A stretch of 64,000 bases of DNA, taken from Leptotrichia wadei. GTDB lineage: Bacteria; Fusobacteriota; Fusobacteriia; Fusobacteriales; Leptotrichiaceae. A model generated the notes under the pieces. That model made no database searches, was not told the origin of the DNA, and saw nothing but the letters and a program-made list of their open reading frames with translations. A program made the position numbers and the translations under genes. The DNA is taken from positions 1,178,001 through 1,242,000 of the forward strand of contig NZ_AP019841.1 in NCBI RefSeq assembly GCF_007990445.1. The letters run 5' to 3'. Numbering within the stretch: position 1 is the first letter of the stretch; every line of letters begins with the position of its first letter. Of this stretch, positions 2,727 through 19,017 are shown piece by piece.

Positions 2727-3926
2727 TTATGCCTTTTCATGTATAAAGTTTATAAACTCTTCCATTTCCTCTTTTGTAGCAAATTTTGCTGTATACATAT
2801 AATTTCCCATAGCTTCTGAAAAAATATCAGGCATTCTTTCATCCATTACAATCGCATTTCCATATTTTTGCTTAATTTCATCATGTGAATGAACATAATT
2901 GTTATTATCACGACGGCTGGCATAAACACAGTAATTTTTTTCTAAGTCTTCATTCAAGTTTGCATTTCTAATTTCATCAAAAGCTACCATATCAGCCCAA
3001 ATTTGATAAACATCTGTATTATTGGCATAGTTGTACATATCAGGAGTATACCCGCCTGCAGGACGCATATTTGCTTCCAGCCCAATATAATCACCTTTTT
3101 TACCTAATCCATCCTTATCTTCATTAAGTTTAAAAAATTCCAAGTGAACAAATCTGCTTTTCACTCCAAATCCTTTTATAGATTTTCTTCCTGCATCCAG
3201 CAATTTTTCAGGCATTTTCTTTTGCACATAATAAAAAACATCAAGCCCGTCATTTACAACATCCATAATTGCAGGTTCAAATATACCAGTTTCAAAAAGA
3301 GGATTACCATTAGAGTCAATAATGGCATCGTAAGATACAAGATCTCCATCAACATACTCTTCCATAATATATTTTACATCTTTATTACGATTTTCAAAAA
3401 ATGCCTTTAACTCTTCTTCATTTTTAATTTTATGAGTATCGCTCGCTCCAACTCCATTGTCAGGCTTGGTTACAACTGGATACCCGACTTTTTCAATAAA
3501 TTTTTTCGCTTTTGTAGGTGTTGTCACTAATGAAAAATCGGCAAACGGCACTTTTGCCTTCTTATACGCTTTTTTCATTTTCGATTTTTCTTTAATATTA
3601 GCAATCTTGTCAGCTTTTATTCCTGTTGTAATATTAAAATCAGAACGAAGCTGTGCATCTTGTGCAAGCCAGTATTCATTATTAGATTCAAGCCAGTCTA
3701 TTTTTCCATATTTATGAGTAAAAAAAGCCACTGCCTTCAATACTTCATCATAATTTTCAAGACTAGAAACCTTATAATATTCAGTCAAGCTGTCCTTTAA
3801 TTTTTGATCCAGCTGATCATATTCTACATCTGCTATCCCTAATATATTTACTCCATTTTTTTTCAATCTATCACAAAATTCCCAGTTTGTTTTTGGAAAT
3901 TGTGGTGAAATATAAACGAAATTCAT
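2727..3926 (-). CDS. ATP-grasp family ligase-like protein
   Basis: A 399-residue protein with a pre-ATP-grasp Rossmann-like N-terminus (starting MNFVYISPQFPKTN) and an ATP-grasp core at about residues 105-310. The core carries the segments YPVVTKPDNGVGASDT and IMEEYVDGDLVSYDA, and later LEANMRPAGG, which fits the metal-binding strand. ATP-grasp enzymes join a carboxylate to an amine or similar nucleophile through an acyl-phosphate. The start is supported by AAGGAGATG upstream and by a promoter at 3984-4013. It leads a two-gene unit with the esterase. It is often annotated as a carbamoyl-phosphate-synthase-like protein, but no glutaminase or second synthase half is present. Confidence 0.75.
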   Translation of the reverse strand: MNFVYISPQFPKTNWEFCDRLKKNGVNILGIADVEYDQLDQKLKDSLTEYYKVSSLENYDEVLKAVAFFTHKYGKIDWLESNNEYWLAQDAQLRSDFNITTGIKADKIANIKEKSKMKKAYKKAKVPFADFSLVTTPTKAKKFIEKVGYPVVTKPDNGVGASDTHKIKNEEELKAFFENRNKDVKYIMEEYVDGDLVSYDAIIDSNGNPLFETGIFEPAIMDVVNDGLDVFYYVQKKMPEKLLDAGRKSIKGFGVKSRFVHLEFFKLNEDKDGLGKKGDYIGLEANMRPAGGYTPDMYNYANNTDVYQIWADMVAFDEIRNANLNEDLEKNYCVYASRRDNNNYVHSHDEIKQKYGNAIVMDERMPDIFSEAMGNYMYTAKFATKEEMEEFINFIHEKA

Positions 3927-4013: not shown

Positions 4014-4325
4014 GTCGATTATGATACAAATTTCTCAATTTTTTAAATATAACTTTTTAATACTTGATTATTTTTTTCTAATATTTCTATATTTTCAAAC
4101 TTTCAACAATTCTAAAATTTTTAAATCCTAATCTTTAGGTCTCTTTATTCGTGCTATTATTACATATTTCTCTAATGAATCAAATATACTAAAATTGCTA
4201 TTGCTATTTTGCTATTTTAAAGTTCAATTTTTTTAATAAATATAATTGCAAATTTTATTCTCAAAAAAACTATTTAAAACTTGGTTAAAAGTGATTCCTT
4301 AAATATATTTCGTATACTTCAAAAA
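4014..4325. other. Gene-free AT-rich spacer
   Basis: No open frame with a ribosome site and no clear hairpin was found between the ATP-grasp promoter and the MITE. It is very AT-rich on both strands. Confidence 0.5.
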
Positions 4326-4416
4326 GGATGTGTAAAAATTTTTGTATAAATAGAACAGCAAAGTATTAAATTTACTGGATTTATCTATTAGTTTACACAA
4401 AATTATGAACACTCTC
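4326..4416. mobile_element. Small MITE with IS256-like terminal inverted repeats
   Basis: The left end GGATGTGTAAAAATTTTTGT and the right end, read on the other strand as GAGAGTGTTCATAATTTTGT, are imperfect inverted repeats (about 16 of 21 positions agree over the core GTGT...TTTTGTNTAAA). They enclose about 45 bases with no coding capacity. The inner TTTACACA and outer CACTC pattern recalls IS256-family ends. A related palindrome occurs at 48722-48772. The assignment is by eye. Confidence 0.45.
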
Positions 4417-4547
4417 TTCAAAAGGCAACGAACACTCCTTCAATTTATAATTTATAAAATTCAATATTCTCTCTGCATCTTTCTCATCCTCGATAATCAT
4501 TCCTCTGTTTTTAAAAATTTGCATGTCAAAAATTTATGTTTCGTCAT
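4393..4547 (-). pseudogene. Decayed small gene cut by the MITE
   Basis: An ATG at 4547 follows a good AGGAG site and encodes [16 protein letters not shown] before a stop. The -1 frame then continues as [15 protein letters not shown] to ESVHNFV, where translation runs into the terminal repeat of the MITE and stops at 4393. This looks like a small gene that lost its 3' end to the element and later gained a frameshift. The product is not recognised. It lies just beyond the terminator of the DUF697 gene. Confidence 0.35.
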
Positions 4548-4565
4548 TATAATAATTTCTCCTAT

Positions 4566-4618
4566 AAAAAAGCCCTGCGTAGGCATACTAACCTTGTATT
4601 ATTTAAAATACTGCAGGG
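4566..4618 (-). terminator. Terminator of the phosphatase/DUF697 cassette
   Basis: On the minus strand CCCTGC (4613-4618) pairs with GCAGGG (4573-4578) and is followed directly by a run of six T. A small inner hairpin GTATTTTAAATAATAC lies in the loop. Confidence 0.65.
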
Positions 4619-4673
4619 GGTTTGATATATTTTATTTTATATTATTTTTTTGAAAATGTCAATTGGGAATTTT

Positions 4674-5261
4674 TTATTTCTTAGGTGGTTTAAAATTATT
4701 TTTAAATTCCTCAACAATATCATCCATATCAAGATAGTTAGTTGGTCTTCCTTCTTTAATATATCTAATACACAAATTTTTCAATGTTATTATGTAAGCT
4801 TCTCCCATAGCTTTTGTTATAGCAGCGGCTGTTCCGATTGAAGCCACTGAACCAACAATAGGAATAAATTTTAATAGATTAGAAGCTACTGTTCTTCCAA
4901 TCATAGAAGCACCAATAACAGTTCCTAGTCCACTAACAATCATTTTAGCTTCTGTTTCAACATTAAATTTTTCATTTATTTGATAGATCATATTTAACTG
5001 TATTCCTGAAATAGGAATCGCATCTGCAAAAGGTATTGGTATAACTCCTACTCCACCTGCTGCTACAGAACTCATATCAACAATTTCTCTCGCTTTCTTT
5101 TCTTGATACTCTACTTCTTCAATTTCTTCTTCTTGCTTTCTTTTTTTCTCTATTCTTTCATTCTCTTGATCTATTTCCTCGTCTTTTCCTGCTTCCTTTT
5201 TTAAATTGTTTAATTCTTTTTTAAGTTTTTCAAATTCATCATCATAATAATTTCCACTCAT
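4674..5261 (-). CDS. DUF697-like membrane-associated protein with N-terminal coiled coil
   Basis: 195 residues. Residues 1-60 are highly charged (KK/EE-rich) and should form a coiled coil. Residues 65-165 match the DUF697 pattern: a Gly/Ala-rich hairpin containing IPIPFADAIPISGIQLNMIYQI, a second hydrophobic stretch, LLKFIPIVGS, then an Ala-rich helix ending in a YI/IRYI segment. DUF697 domains usually sit behind a GTPase domain (YcjF and Era-like proteins); here there is no GTPase on the same chain or nearby. The start has a GGAGATACTGAAA-ATG ribosome site. It is the last gene of a four-gene unit, 29 bases after the previous one. The function is unknown. Confidence 0.6.
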   Translation of the reverse strand: MSGNYYDDEFEKLKKELNNLKKEAGKDEEIDQENERIEKKRKQEEEIEEVEYQEKKAREIVDMSSVAAGGVGVIPIPFADAIPISGIQLNMIYQINEKFNVETEAKMIVSGLGTVIGASMIGRTVASNLLKFIPIVGSVASIGTAAAITKAMGEAYIITLKNLCIRYIKEGRPTNYLDMDDIVEEFKNNFKPPKK

Positions 5262-5290
5262 TTTCAGTATCTCCTATTTTTTATTTAATA

Positions 5291-6631
5291 TTATTTTTTT
5301 AATAACTCATCTAATTCTTCTACAGAATAAATGATTTTTTCTTTTGAAACTCCCATTATTTTAGCATATTCAACACTATAAATCATTTGTTGAGTCGCAT
5401 TATTTTTTTTTGAAAAAGATTCAATTAATAATTTTTGTCTTTGTTTATATTCTTCTTGTACCTGTTGAATAAATTCATACAAAGTCTTTGTTATCTCTCT
5501 ATCGATTTTTTGTATTCTTTCGTAGAATTCTTTTATCAATTTTTGTTCATTTAAATTTTTAATTGTATTAAATATAGAATATAAAAACTTATCTAAATAT
5601 TCCTTTATGTAAGGACCATAACGTATAATTAATTCTTTAAATACTAACATTATTAATCTTACCCAAGCGACATAATTTAAATGGAGAATAAATTGTACCA
5701 TATTGCCACCTGAACGAAGTCCTGCATCAATACCATCTATTAAACAAAAAGTTGTATATCCTATAAGTAACATTAATCTCAGATCTCCGTGTTTTTCAGT
5801 TGGAATACATTCTTTCCAATCTTTCTTTTCAAAATATCTTTTTTTAATCACCCATAAACTTCTAATCATTAATTCTTGTATTAAAACAGGAATTGACATT
5901 GTTACTCCGAAACGGGCATCGTATCCTTCTTGAAAAACTCTTGTCATTGTTACAGCTAATGTTTGTCTATCATTTCCATTTTGAAATTTACCAAAATCAC
6001 ACATCAAAAATAATTCCATGAAAGGAATCGGTATTCCTGAACCTCTTCCAGCATTTATTTTTCCTCTTCCACCTGAACTTCCAGATAGATCAGACATTAT
6101 GTGTCCAATCCAATTACAGAATCCGCAAAATAATTTTTCAATAAAATTATTCCCTTTCAATTCAAATTTTCCATCTGATGTATCAATATTAAATATTTTC
6201 CCTTCACTAACAAATGTTGCAGTAGATGTAAATTGATTTAATATTGAAAAAAATAATCCAATGATATCAGGTGAATGGCTTAGTGATTTTATATGATGAT
6301 TTTTAGTTCCCATTTTAAATAATTTGTTTACATCGGTTGTATTTCTTTGATCATAGTTCACTCTAAACTTACCTTCAAGAAATCCTATCGCAGAAGCTAC
6401 ATTATTCTCATTATCTATTTTAGGTTTCCAACCACTCACTTTAGCAAATTTTTTTACTAATTCATCTGCTCCATCATCTGTCAAACTTCCTAATTTACTT
6501 AAACTAGGATTTCCAACAAAAAAGACATCAATAATTCCTGCAATAGCTCCACTAAAGCCAGCAATCATGAAATCATATCTATCACAGGTCGACAACTTCC
6601 ATTCTTTTTCTTTTAATTCGTACTTATTCAT
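5291..6631 (-). CDS. Conserved protein of unknown function with hydrophobic segments
   Basis: 446 residues from the ATG at 6631; a TTG at 6640 is also possible but sits too close to the AGGAG. The first codons overlap the stop of the preceding gene by 8 bases, so translation is coupled. Features visible are an N-terminal hydrophobic Gly/Ala stretch (FMIAGFSGAIAGIIDVFFVG), a His/Ser segment (NHHIKSLSHSPD), a Gly-rich turn (SGSSGGRGKINAGRGSGIPI), hydrophobic helices at about 225-335 and a C-terminal coiled coil (about 345-446). I do not recognise a named family. The order of motifs suggests a membrane-bound or membrane-inserting protein rather than a soluble enzyme. Confidence 0.55.
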   Translation of the reverse strand: MNKYELKEKEWKLSTCDRYDFMIAGFSGAIAGIIDVFFVGNPSLSKLGSLTDDGADELVKKFAKVSGWKPKIDNENNVASAIGFLEGKFRVNYDQRNTTDVNKLFKMGTKNHHIKSLSHSPDIIGLFFSILNQFTSTATFVSEGKIFNIDTSDGKFELKGNNFIEKLFCGFCNWIGHIMSDLSGSSGGRGKINAGRGSGIPIPFMELFLMCDFGKFQNGNDRQTLAVTMTRVFQEGYDARFGVTMSIPVLIQELMIRSLWVIKKRYFEKKDWKECIPTEKHGDLRLMLLIGYTTFCLIDGIDAGLRSGGNMVQFILHLNYVAWVRLIMLVFKELIIRYGPYIKEYLDKFLYSIFNTIKNLNEQKLIKEFYERIQKIDREITKTLYEFIQQVQEEYKQRQKLLIESFSKKNNATQQMIYSVEYAKIMGVSKEKIIYSVEELDELLKK

Positions 6632-7469
6632 TTGACACAAATTCTCCTATTTTAGTCGATAACGATTCAGAAATATTCATTAATGTTGCTAATTTTTCTT
6701 TATTTTCTATCGAAAATTGATTATAATCATTTTTATATTTTATTAATTCAAATCCATTTTCAATATTATTAGAAATTTCTTTTATTTCTTTTTCAGACAT
6801 TAAAACTTTAATATCTAATTTCATTATTTTCATCATTTCTTTTTTTATTTCTAATATTTGTTCTTCAATTTTATCAGCAGCTTCTTTATTTTTACCATTT
6901 AAGATCAATCCAGCACCTAATAATGCACTTCCTCCTATAGCCCAACCTATTGGTCCTGCTAATGCTAGAAGCGCTTCCCCACCTACAATTCCACCTCCTC
7001 CTGCAGCTAATGCTCCTCCACCAAGCCAGGCTAATGCAGCATTTGTTGCAGCAGCACCTGATAAACTTGCTATTGCTGTTCCAGTAGAAGCCGTTCCAAA
7101 CGTTGTTGCTATTGCCATCGCCGCCGTTGGAGCAAATGCAGCGACTCCTGCACCAGCTAATGCTCCTGCACCAGCCACAGCTGTTGGAACTACTTTTGCT
7201 TGATTAACCTCTTTTGCTACTTCTTCAATTTTATTGTCAAATTTTTTTATATTCATCTCTATTTTACCTAAAATAGTTTCAAACTCTATTGGTTTATTTG
7301 ACAACTTCTGAATATAACTACTAAAATTTTTAAGTATTTCAACAGCATATACTTTTTTCTCATATAATGATTCAGAGTGATTTACAGTATTAGCTAATGT
7401 TCTTTTGTAATCTTCATATACTTCCTCTAAATCTTTTTTTGCTCTTTCTTTCAATTCTGCGTTAAACAT
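6624..7469 (-). CDS. Coiled-coil protein with a long glycine-zipper hydrophobic core
   Basis: 281 residues: charged helices at 1-90, a continuous Gly/Ala-rich hydrophobic block of about 100 residues (95-195, including AWLGGGALAAGGGGIVGGEA and LAGPIGWAIGGSALLGAG), then another charged helical region to the end. This coil/hydrophobic hairpin/coil plan is seen in alpha-helical pore formers and in membrane-anchoring parts of dynamin-like proteins, but no GTPase is present. An AGGAG site precedes the ATG by 8 bases. It lies 11 bases after the phosphatase gene and overlaps the next. The family name is not known to me, and any pore or membrane-remodelling role is an inference from composition. Confidence 0.55.
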   Translation of the reverse strand: MFNAELKERAKKDLEEVYEDYKRTLANTVNHSESLYEKKVYAVEILKNFSSYIQKLSNKPIEFETILGKIEMNIKKFDNKIEEVAKEVNQAKVVPTAVAGAGALAGAGVAAFAPTAAMAIATTFGTASTGTAIASLSGAAATNAALAWLGGGALAAGGGGIVGGEALLALAGPIGWAIGGSALLGAGLILNGKNKEAADKIEEQILEIKKEMMKIMKLDIKVLMSEKEIKEISNNIENGFELIKYKNDYNQFSIENKEKLATLMNISESLSTKIGEFVSNE

Positions 7470-7480
7470 ATTTTATTCTC

Positions 7481-8397
7481 CTACTTTTCCAATATTCTTT
7501 TTAATCCAATTAATTTTTTTAGATTTTCTTTAACTTCTAATAAATTTTGTTCATCTTTTTTTGTTTTATCTGTTTTATTTTCTAAATCTATTATATATTC
7601 TTTATAATCCTCAATCAATTTTTCATATTCTTTTTTTCTTTCTTCAGTTAATTTCTTTTTTATTTGTTTTATATCAAATTTTTCTATTTTAATATTATTG
7701 TTTTTTAAAACAAATAATTTCTTTTCCTTTAACTCAACACATCTTAAAACATCAGTAAAAAAACATCCTGAATCTAAATTTATACAATTATTTTTAATGC
7801 TAATATCTTTTTGTGGGGTATGACCATAATATACGATTTTTCCTGTATTATTTTTTTATACCAATCATCTCGAGTCCATAATAAATATTTAATTTCTTGA
7901 TCTTCCAAATTTTTAGAAAAATCAATTCCTGCATGAACAAATAAATGATTTTCACTCTCAACGATATGAGGCATTTTTTCAATAAAATTAAATAACCATT
8001 TTTCTTCATAGAATTTATTATTTTTCCAATATTCATCTATTGTTTTTTTCTTCTGTTTGATGTTCAAAAAAGATTTTACAGTAACATTTCCACCATTATA
8101 TAACCAATTTAAACGAGAATTTTCATCATTTATTGATTCAAAAAGCATATTTTCGTGATTTCCCATTAAGTGAATAATATTGTAACCTTTTTGAATCATT
8201 TCTTCATACCAATTATATAACTCAAAAGAAAATTTCCCTCTATCACAACTATCTCCAAGAATCAGTAGTAAATCTTCTTTTTTCAAATCTATTTTTTCTA
8301 TTAGTTTTTCAAACAAATCGAATCTTCCATGAATATCTGTCAAAACAAAAATTTTTTGATAATCATCTTCTTTAATTTTTCTTATATTTAGTCCCAT
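7481..8397 (-). pseudogene. Calcineurin-like (PP1/PP2A-type) phosphatase split by a -1 frameshift
   Basis: Motifs in order: LTDIHGRFD (metal ligands), LILGDSCDRG, MGNHE and HLFVHAGID, as in bacterial serine/threonine or Ap4A-type phosphatases. The frame breaks at a run of seven A (7851-7857 on the plus strand). Re-reading one A restores VYYGHTPQKD, the conserved GHTP motif, then LDSGCF and a charged coiled-coil tail to a TAG at 7481, for about 305 residues in total. Without the shift the protein ends at 7780 with a meaningless tail and lacks GHTP. Slippage on the A7 tract, true decay and an assembly error are all possible. The start is taken as the ATG at 8397; a TTG at 8415 is in frame. It heads the four-gene cassette. 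Confidence 0.7.
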
Positions 8398-8458
8398 TTT
8401 TCCATCATCTTCCAAAGTATTAAAATTAATTTTTATTTATAATTTAAGCTTTGTTAAT

Positions 8459-8487
8459 ATTATACCTCAAATAAAAGATTTTTACAA
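8459..8487 (-). promoter_or_regulatory. Promoter of the phosphatase cassette
   Basis: Minus strand TTGTAA (8482-8487), 17-base spacer, TATAAT (8459-8464). The start is predicted near 8452, about 55 bases before the phosphatase ATG. It gives the cassette its own transcription start, separate from queH. Confidence 0.6.
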
Positions 8488-8504
8488 TTTATTTTATAAA
8501 AATC

Positions 8505-9221
8505 TTACTTATACTCATTCAAGTCAATCCCCTGATCCAATGCTGCAAAAATGCACCCACAATAGCATTGACGATAAACATCATATTCTGCGCACATATC
8601 GACTGAACGCTTGTAACCATTATTTTTCTTAAAATCTGATGGCAAATAATTTACATCAAAAATTTCTTGAATTTCTAATCCAAGAGTGTTTATTAATTGG
8701 CTATTTTTATGAGGACTTAATGTTAATGCGCTTCCAAAATAATCAAATCCTAACTCTTGGGCCTTTTTTGCAACAATATCTAATCTCATTTGAAAGCAAA
8801 CAGTACATCTCTCTCCACCTTCTTTTTCGTTTTCTAATCCTTTCACAGCTCGATAAAAGTCAGCTGGTTTGTACTCATCTTCAATAAATCCAACATTATT
8901 TCCTGTTCGTTCGTTAAATTTATTTATAAACTCTTCTTGTACTAAGGCTCTTTTCTTATATTCAGCTTTAGGATGAATATTATTATTTGCGAACAACACT
9001 GTCACATCAGCATATTGTGTAAGAAACTCCAAAGTATACGTGCTACAAGGTGCACAACAGCTATGAATCATTATTTTAGGACGAATATTTTTACTTTTCC
9101 AATCTGAAATTAATTTCGTCAAAATTGTATGATAATTGATTTTTTGATTTGGATTCATTCTCTCTAAAATTTCTTTTGCATTTTTTATGTCTTTTTCAAT
9201 AAAATTTTCTTTATTTTCCAT
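8505..9221 (-). CDS. queH: Epoxyqueuosine reductase QueH
   Basis: 238 residues of the DUF208/QueH family, which reduces epoxyqueuosine to queuosine in tRNA as a non-cobalamin alternative to QueG. The cysteine motifs are all visible: HSCCAPCS near residue 55, ERCTVCFQMR near 138 and YCGCIFA near the C-terminus, together with the family signature SALTLSPHKN. These cysteines and an Asp hold the Fe-S cluster and adjacent metal in the family. A GAGGAG site precedes the ATG. It stands alone, with a terminator-bearing spacer upstream and the phosphatase cassette downstream. Confidence 0.93.
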   Translation of the reverse strand: MENKENFIEKDIKNAKEILERMNPNQKINYHTILTKLISDWKSKNIRPKIMIHSCCAPCSTYTLEFLTQYADVTVLFANNNIHPKAEYKKRALVQEEFINKFNERTGNNVGFIEDEYKPADFYRAVKGLENEKEGGERCTVCFQMRLDIVAKKAQELGFDYFGSALTLSPHKNSQLINTLGLEIQEIFDVNYLPSDFKKNNGYKRSVDMCAEYDVYRQCYCGCIFAALDQGIDLNEYK

Positions 9222-17806: not shown

Positions 17807-17940
17807 TGAACTACTCCCGCTTTTAGAAGCGGGAGCTTCTTGGGAAGTATCTGCTTTTGCTAGCCAAATATATTTACCAAGCTCTTCGGGCAGTCCCTGC
17901 CCTGTTTTCTTTTATTTTCTTAATATTCCAACATCGCTTT
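17806..17940 (-). ncRNA. Predicted omega-RNA (reRNA) of TnpB copy 1
   Basis: In IS605-type elements the RNA guiding TnpB spans the 3' end of tnpB to the right end, with the guide coming from flanking DNA. Here the conserved right-end region holds two potential hairpins: GGGCAGGGACTGCCC-type sequence near 17889-17905 and the end hairpin at 17814-17835. The guide would begin TAAAATGCTTGTGTAT, which lies in the 3' end of the YwqK-like gene. The 5' boundary is a guess. Confidence 0.5.
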
Positions 17941-19017
17941 TCCAATGTTTTTTATATTCAATGCCGCATTGTAATCTCTATCAATTTCAATCCCGCAGCA
18001 CTCACATTTATAACTTCTTTCTGATAATTCCAGTTTCTCTTTAACATTTCCACATTTACTACAAGTTTTCGACGATGGAAACCACTTATCTATCTTCAAA
18101 AATTGCTTTCCTAAAAACATCAGTTTATACTCAAGCATTCTCAAAAACATTCCCCATCCATTATCTCCTACACTTTTTCCAAAATTTAATGCCTGGCTCA
18201 TCCCTTTCATATTCAAATCTTCAACAACCACAGCATTATAATCTTCAGACAATTTTTTCGATAATTTATGCAAAAAATCTCTTCGGCAATTTTTAATATA
18301 CTCATGCAATTTTGATATTTTCGCTTTTTGCTTATACCAATTTTTAGAAAACTTCACTTTTCTCGATAATGATTTCTGTAATTTTTTCAATTCTTCTTCC
18401 AACATTCTAAAATATTTTGGATAATCAGCCCTTTGGTTTTCAGAACTGATAAATAGTTCAGACATCGAAAAATCAAGTCCAATCACTTTATTATTACTTG
18501 GATTTTTTTGAATTTCTTTTTCAAATTCCGTCAAAATAGAAACATAGTAATTTCCATTACAGTTTGTCAATGTTACCGACTTTATTCTATAATTCTTTGG
18601 TATTTCTCTATGATATTTTAATTTTATTCTTTTCAATTTTGGCAAGACCAAATATTTATTTTCCTCAATTCGTATCGAATTATTCACACAATTTGTTGTA
18701 TAACTTTTAACATTATTCTTTTTAGATTTGAACCTTGGAAATTTTGCTCTCTTCTGAAAAAAATTCGTAAATGATCGTCTCACATTTAATTGAGCATTTG
18801 AAAGTGCAAGACTGTCCACTTCTTTCAAAAATTGATTTTCACTTTTCAAACTGGCAGGTGTAATTATTTTATTTTTTCCAGTTTCTTCATAAATTTTATT
18901 CGCAGTGTACAAAATTGTATTGTAAACAAAACGAACACATCCAAAAGTCTTATTTATCAATAATTCCTGCTCTTTATTTGGATAAATTCTGTATTTGAAT
19001 ACCAAATTATATTTCAT
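17920..19017 (-). CDS. tnpB: TnpB, RNA-guided endonuclease of an IS605-type element
   Basis: 365 residues, full length. RuvC residues are visible: Asp in VIGLDFSMSEL, Glu in VVVEDLNMKGMSQ and the last Asp in DRDYNAALNI. The zinc ribbon CSKCG...CECCG (about 310-330) is intact. The N-terminal helix-turn-helix region begins MKYNLVFKYRIYPNKEQE. AGGAGGTG precedes the ATG. Family members use an RNA made from the element's right end to cut targets next to the insertion-site motif, which helps the element persist. Copy 2 (49898-50995) is about 95% alike in the aligned parts but carries a stop. Confidence 0.92.
   Translation of the reverse strand: MKYNLVFKYRIYPNKEQELLINKTFGCVRFVYNTILYTANKIYEETGKNKIITPASLKSENQFLKEVDSLALSNAQLNVRRSFTNFFQKRAKFPRFKSKKNNVKSYTTNCVNNSIRIEENKYLVLPKLKRIKLKYHREIPKNYRIKSVTLTNCNGNYYVSILTEFEKEIQKNPSNNKVIGLDFSMSELFISSENQRADYPKYFRMLEEELKKLQKSLSRKVKFSKNWYKQKAKISKLHEYIKNCRRDFLHKLSKKLSEDYNAVVVEDLNMKGMSQALNFGKSVGDNGWGMFLRMLEYKLMFLGKQFLKIDKWFPSSKTCSKCGNVKEKLELSERSYKCECCGIEIDRDYNAALNIKNIGKAMLEY

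Follow-up and report, generated by a model that had tools for sequence, protein, structure and literature searches.

The window analysed here, a 64,000-nucleotide stretch of Leptotrichia wadei DNA (G000:C1:1178001-1242000 of an AT-rich 2.40-Mb genome), carries four minus-strand genes in succession, running from position 8397 down to 4674: a phosphatase gene followed by genes A, B and D. The features of the locus are as follows.

4095..8504, no strand: accessory segment between an ATP-grasp gene (2727-3926) and queH (8505-9221), delimited by blastn against genome G003
7780..8397, minus: first frame of the phosphatase, with motifs DIHG, GDSCDRG, GNHE and HAG, stopping before GHTP (PF00149, E 2.6e-15)
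7846..7858 (~7850), minus: frameshift site, A7 on the coding strand and A8 in genomes G002 and G004 (DNA alignment)
7481..7855, minus: remainder of the phosphatase in another frame, GHTP plus coiled-coil tail (intact homologues in G002 and G004)
6624..7469, minus: gene A, 281 aa, PDC-M09A family, a Gly/Ala hydrophobic block between two coiled coils (PADLOC E 4e-95)
5291..6631, minus: gene B, 446 aa, BnzB body, start at ATG 6631 with TTG 6640 also possible (PADLOC BnzB E 1.3e-136)
5291..5608, minus: C-terminal tail of B, common to a PDC-M09B protein with an unrelated body (PADLOC profile match)
4674..5261, minus: gene D, 195 aa, with an acidic coil and a DUF697-like membrane-associating domain (PF05128, 21 bits; GTPase homology)
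4682..7633, minus: unit present or absent at the phosphatase 3' end, made up of the phosphatase tail, A, B and almost the whole of D (blastn comparisons, G022 with the window and G012 with G004)
4573..4618 (about), minus: terminator-like hairpin followed by CUUUUUU (fold z -2.1; absent from the pattern-scan list)

An earlier note on this DNA had described a four-gene cassette, and its spacings are correct: a gap of 11 bases precedes A (7470-7480), A and B overlap by 8 bases if B starts at ATG 6631, and a gap of 29 bases lies between B and D (5262-5290). The phosphatase, however, is not one continuous frame with its coiled-coil tail. We rejected a chance gene order because the order is kept in G002, the nearest relative, and in G004, and the A-B pair is kept in other phyla. 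The promoter claimed for the cassette found no support in a scan that returned 32 sigma-70-like sites against 33.2 expected, which is no better than chance; despite this, TTGTAA-N17-TATAAT at 8487-8459 is well placed as a promoter. At the other end, the proposed terminator is plausible as a fold (MFE -17.3, z -2.1), but the pattern scan did not list the hairpin. The neighbours of the cassette in the window are queH, the ATP-grasp gene and an aminotransferase-like gene, none of which is a defence gene.

The first gene encodes a PPP-type metallophosphatase, as the earlier note had recognised. Its homologues in G002 (318 aa) and G004 (305 aa) occupy a single frame with all PPP motifs complete, GHTP included; the intact homologue resembles the serine/threonine protein phosphatase 1g5b (E 2e-7) and the metallophosphoesterase 4j6o (E 2e-9) and differs from them by its coiled-coil tail. 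No single frame in the window holds the complete motif set. The frame from 8397 stops at 7780 (the ORF 8415-7780 ends ...KSYIMVIPHKKILALKIIV), and YYGHTPQKD and the tail are read in another frame. DNA alignment showed that the window gene differs from both G002 and G004 by three homopolymer indels: the two upstream ones compensate each other over a short distance, and it is the third (A8 to A7) that breaks the phosphatase. Location of all three indels in homopolymers would be expected if the frameshift were an assembly error and the phosphatase intact in the living strain. However, 29 of the 30 G002 proteins comparable across the window match it without interruption, the sole broken one being the phosphatase; a general error rate therefore does not account for three indels within this single gene, and we regard an assembly error as improbable. 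Phase variation or recoding, in which slippage at the A7 tract would switch or partly restore the full-length protein, could account for the frame-deciding indel sitting in an A7/A8 run, but A7 is short for strong slippage, the two further homopolymer indels in the gene fit decay better, and only a single allele of the strain has been seen; this too strikes us as quite unlikely. We favour the reading that the phosphatase is probably inactive in the present strain. Since the gene is frameshifted, its proposed role as a working signalling arm is unsupported in the window.

Neither A nor B has a convincing Pfam or NCBIfam match. PADLOC relates them to two systems: Bunzi, reportedly the BnzA plus BnzB pair of Millman et al. 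2022 (PDLC03833 and PDLC03834), and PDC-M09, a PADLOC phage defence candidate composed of M09A and M09B that is itself unproven. The PDC-M09A profile covers residues 1-276 of the 281 in A (E 4.2e-95). The architecture previously described for this protein, a Gly/Ala-rich block of ~100 residues between two coils, was confirmed by its sequence and by an AlphaFold2 model in which the coils have pLDDT values >90 and the block values <50. The top Foldseek matches of the model were ClyA and other alpha-pore toxins (6mrt and 2wcd, E 0.21 and 0.53, TM 0.32); these are not significant, long helices match easily, and the hydrophobic block lies in the part of the model with pLDDT <50. A probably inserts in the membrane, as its hydrophobic block suggests. 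A tblastn search with A against plasmids and phages gave no match, which does not indicate absence because the low-complexity block was probably masked; the A gene is present on a plasmid (L051) and in a phage (L054).

The BnzB profile (PDLC03834) matches B over 331 residues, at profile positions 152-479 of 504 (E 1.3e-136), leaving the N-terminal 151 positions of the profile uncovered. The match to M09B is limited to the last 95 residues of B, which correspond to the M09B end (PADLOC E 1e-11), as a second comparison confirmed (E 4e-9). This tail occurs in 8 of 9 loci with the A-B arrangement and in 0 of 27 BnzB proteins paired with BnzA, counts that are not corrected for sequence relatedness. 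Since loci with a longer type of A have no detectable B tail, not every A-B pair requires one. Judging from the shared tails, the tail of B probably docks on A. In alignments of 16 diverse members (15-98% identity to the window protein, residues counted from ATG 6631), H112, H119, H177 and D181 are invariant and D94 is nearly so. The model of B, built from 49 sequences, has a mean pLDDT of 91.9; Foldseek searches of the PDB and BFVD returned no fold match for it at E <0.001, nor did any PDB entry match it by sequence. A phospholipase C or P1 nuclease fold was considered for BnzB and dropped, as nothing significant of this kind emerged from either database. Comparison of B with YdjM/DUF457 (PF04307) by hhalign gave a weak match (probability 7%, E 0.005, score 28 against 12-15 for controls) in which the motif residues are in register, and the His/Asp pattern of B resembles the paired His and HxxxD of that family; PF04307 was not reported by Pfam for B. 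The His/Asp cluster may bind metal.

Gene D had been assigned to DUF697. It scores 21.0 bits, below the Pfam cut-off of 27.7, but homology supports the assignment: D shares 33% identity (E 1e-18) with the DUF697 end of a G004 GTPase (L013:12170-13495). The accompanying remark that there is no GTPase is right for the window genome, where a search for a DUF697-bearing GTPase matched D only. In G004, however, a GTPase that has a DUF697 domain of its own precedes the cassette, together with a further small protein. GTPase-DUF697 modules occur in the same bacterial family (L013, L019, L047), and D is homologous to their DUF697 end; in G019 a phosphatase, a small DUF697-like gene and a GTPase lie together without A-B. 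One such neighbourhood also holds a 300-aa protein (L019:6712-7614) that starts with an HPr-type phosphocarrier domain (PF00381, E 2.5e-15) and ends in a region resembling D, with a GTPase-DUF697, a PDC-M40B-like protein containing an HNH-like stretch and an A fragment as neighbours. Outside the genus, a DUF697 gene directly adjoins a BnzB-type gene in L040. A stand-alone TerB, above the Pfam cut-off, follows B immediately in Clostridium acidisoli, Megasphaera and Oribacterium, and TerB precedes B in Lachnospiraceae loci. D occupies in the window the place where some relatives have TerB, and a search with PF05099 across the window genome gave no match, so that the idea of a TerB hidden elsewhere was dropped. 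In this position, which the TerB sensor takes in relatives, D may serve as a DUF697 membrane adaptor.

Set against Bunzi, the B protein keeps the motif NHHxKSLxHSP ... GHxxSDxSGSS, and BnzA also places coils after a Gly-rich hydrophobic stretch, with weak similarity to A (hhalign probability 41%, E 3e-4; M09A match, E 0.0014). The window differs in having A as a short protein of its own, in a B without the N-terminal part of BnzB and with another C-terminal tail, and in the added phosphatase and DUF697 genes. We did not file the cassette as Bunzi because BnzA and TerB were looked for and not found; the BnzA profile of PADLOC matched none of the four cassette proteins. Nor was it filed as PDC-M09, despite a full-length M09A: the M09B body (~380 residues) was looked for and not found, and the BnzB body stands in its place. 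Literature searches turned up nothing on the mechanism of Bunzi or on PDC-M09. The cassette probably works like both. More tentatively, and at rather less than even odds, A could be a common membrane-inserting partner for interchangeable effectors that share one C-terminal tail; the BnzB body would then be one of these effectors, acting as a metal-dependent membrane hydrolase, a distant relative of YdjM whose fold the PDB does not yet contain, and the TerB sensor would be replaceable by the phosphatase and DUF697.

One scan of a species-genome collection yielded 79 scored loci: 27 with BnzA-BnzB, 9 with A-B as in the window, 36 with B-A and a longer A, and 7 others. The A-B pair thus recurs in other bacterial phyla, in the window order at 9 loci and reversed at 36. 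B-type proteins were found in 488 plasmid records and 3 phages. Partner genes in relatives include TerB, CxxCxxCC and WYL, with WYL regulators near B in 17 of the 79 loci. PADLOC analysis of 125 neighbour proteins, a set without matched controls, identified type I and II methyltransferases, GajB, MzaA, AbiEii and others. The complete four-gene cassette is much rarer: among 149 relatives, orthologues were seen in G002 (at the same site) and G004 (at another site) only. Co-occurrence of the four families, on which the earlier note had staked its reading, is therefore partial. A and B are widespread as a pair, DUF697 accompanies a BnzB-type gene once more outside the genus, and the phosphatase with A and B, like D with A-B, was seen only in three sister genomes.

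Several further loci contain related parts. M09B-like, A-like and TerB-like genes lie together at L017:9554-12862 and L018:7660-12656, the latter also with a possible BnzB-like gene, so that PDC-M09 and Bunzi parts may share one locus. At L014:9987-16409 an M09A-M09B pair has a VWA gene and a kinase-Ppx fusion gene close by, as in TerY-type neighbourhoods. BnzA is split into two adjacent ORFs before BnzB in L143 and L156 (300+222 aa and 370+211 aa), by frameshift or as a natural split. A Streptococcus suis phage record has a BnzB-type gene between Tet(M) and EsxA/EssB-like secretion genes (L055:4797-12651), in a region that looks like an integrative element. G004 has a second, distant BnzB-type gene (L044:8062-9267, and L028, G004:C1:1244104-1245321) accompanied by a partner of 340 aa and another fragment; the scan reports stops within the wider match, so this locus looks partly decayed. 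Near it lies a TnpB/OrfB-like gene (L044:10737-11834) similar to one in the window (17920-19017, minus) that encodes a transposase-associated protein of 365 aa with a zinc ribbon; another copy, broken in two, lies beside the GTPase module of G006 (L045:7021-8119).

Comparison of the site among relatives showed that the cassette is accessory. A blastn alignment of the G003 region L188 to the window was collinear over 600 bases with window positions 4095-8504 missing between, so that the 4.4-kb segment is absent and the ATP-grasp gene and queH adjoin. At the same site, G022 has a tail-less phosphatase and an Abi_2 gene (PF07751, E 1e-36) and lacks the cassette. Relative to G022, the window contains an extra block of ~2.95 kb reaching from the phosphatase tail into D; a matching block of ~3.07 kb distinguishes G004, at another chromosomal site, from the tail-less phosphatase of G012. 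These alignments indicate that phosphatase tail, A, B and D are acquired, or deleted, all together at the phosphatase 3' end. The window and G004 share ~85% DNA identity within the phosphatase body and 97-99% across most of B; recent exchange fits this rise. The accessory nature of the cassette and its presence as a unit suggest that it moves horizontally.

Such alignments bear on whether the phosphatase is a component at all. A-B-D may simply have joined the 3' end of an accessory phosphatase gene already resident there, which serves only as a recombination site and promoter source, the tail being a by-product. Close tail-less phosphatases do stand without the cassette in G022 and G012, 0 of 80 distant A-B or BnzB loci have a phosphatase of the window family nearby, and the window gene is broken while A, B and D remain 94-100% identical to G002 at the DNA level. 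Against this, G002 and G004, at two different sites, have conserved the tail as an open frame whose length changes only in frame, and phosphatase and DUF697-type genes also lie together without A-B in G019. We consider this explanation a serious possibility, albeit a doubtful one.

Our main reading, to which we assign a probability of roughly 0.55, takes the cassette to be an anti-phage (or anti-mobile-element) module that moves horizontally and is of the Bunzi/PDC-M09 type, A and B being its core pair. The defence role is suggested by homology to Bunzi and by context. An abortive-infection module with a membrane-inserting part had been proposed before; BnzB/PDC-M09 homology, carriage by plasmids and phages and the Abi_2 gene at the same site in a relative argue for it, but its phosphatase arm finds no support in the window. 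In the mechanism we propose, A would insert in the membrane through the Gly/Ala block flanked by its two coiled coils, and B, a BnzB-type partner with an invariant His/Asp cluster, a possible metal site and no known fold, would dock on A through its C-terminal tail. D would act as a DUF697 membrane adaptor in place of a TerB sensor. The segment at the phosphatase 3' end gives the phosphatase its coiled-coil tail, and in relatives with an intact gene the phosphatase would control how active the complex is. During infection the membrane would be damaged by the complex, bringing the infected cell to a halt. We counted against an anti-phage role the absence of the Bunzi-defining BnzA and TerB, the restriction of phosphatase and D beside A-B to three sister genomes, the high E values (from 0.2) of the ClyA-like hits of A, which otherwise speak for a pore-forming part, the failure of B to match the PDB by fold or sequence, and neighbours that are not defence genes.

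Alternatively, the module might serve a stress response of the tellurite or envelope type, A, B and D repairing or remodelling the membrane and the phosphatase resetting signalling. The TerB, CxxCxxCC and WYL partners in relatives are in keeping with the Ter stress network that Anantharaman et al. 2012 proposed, as cited in PMC10250203. Bunzi, however, is listed as an anti-phage system (PMC10952713), and sporadic presence, plasmid and phage carriage and Abi_2 at the same site also speak for defence, which makes a stress module unlikely in our view.

Collectively, the cassette is best read as a variant form of an immune system that is still poorly understood, with three membrane-linked genes placed on the end of a phosphatase gene. 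Comparison sets the constant parts, the BnzB His/Asp motif and the Gly-rich coil protein, apart from the exchangeable ones, TerB, CxxCxxCC, DUF697 and the phosphatase, and joins Bunzi to the unproven candidate PDC-M09. Four or five residues of B are named as handles on a possible enzymatic role, and a single accessory site is seen with the cassette present, absent or replaced by Abi_2. If A is indeed a shared partner for interchangeable effectors, Bunzi and PDC-M09 would be two forms of one modular immune family.
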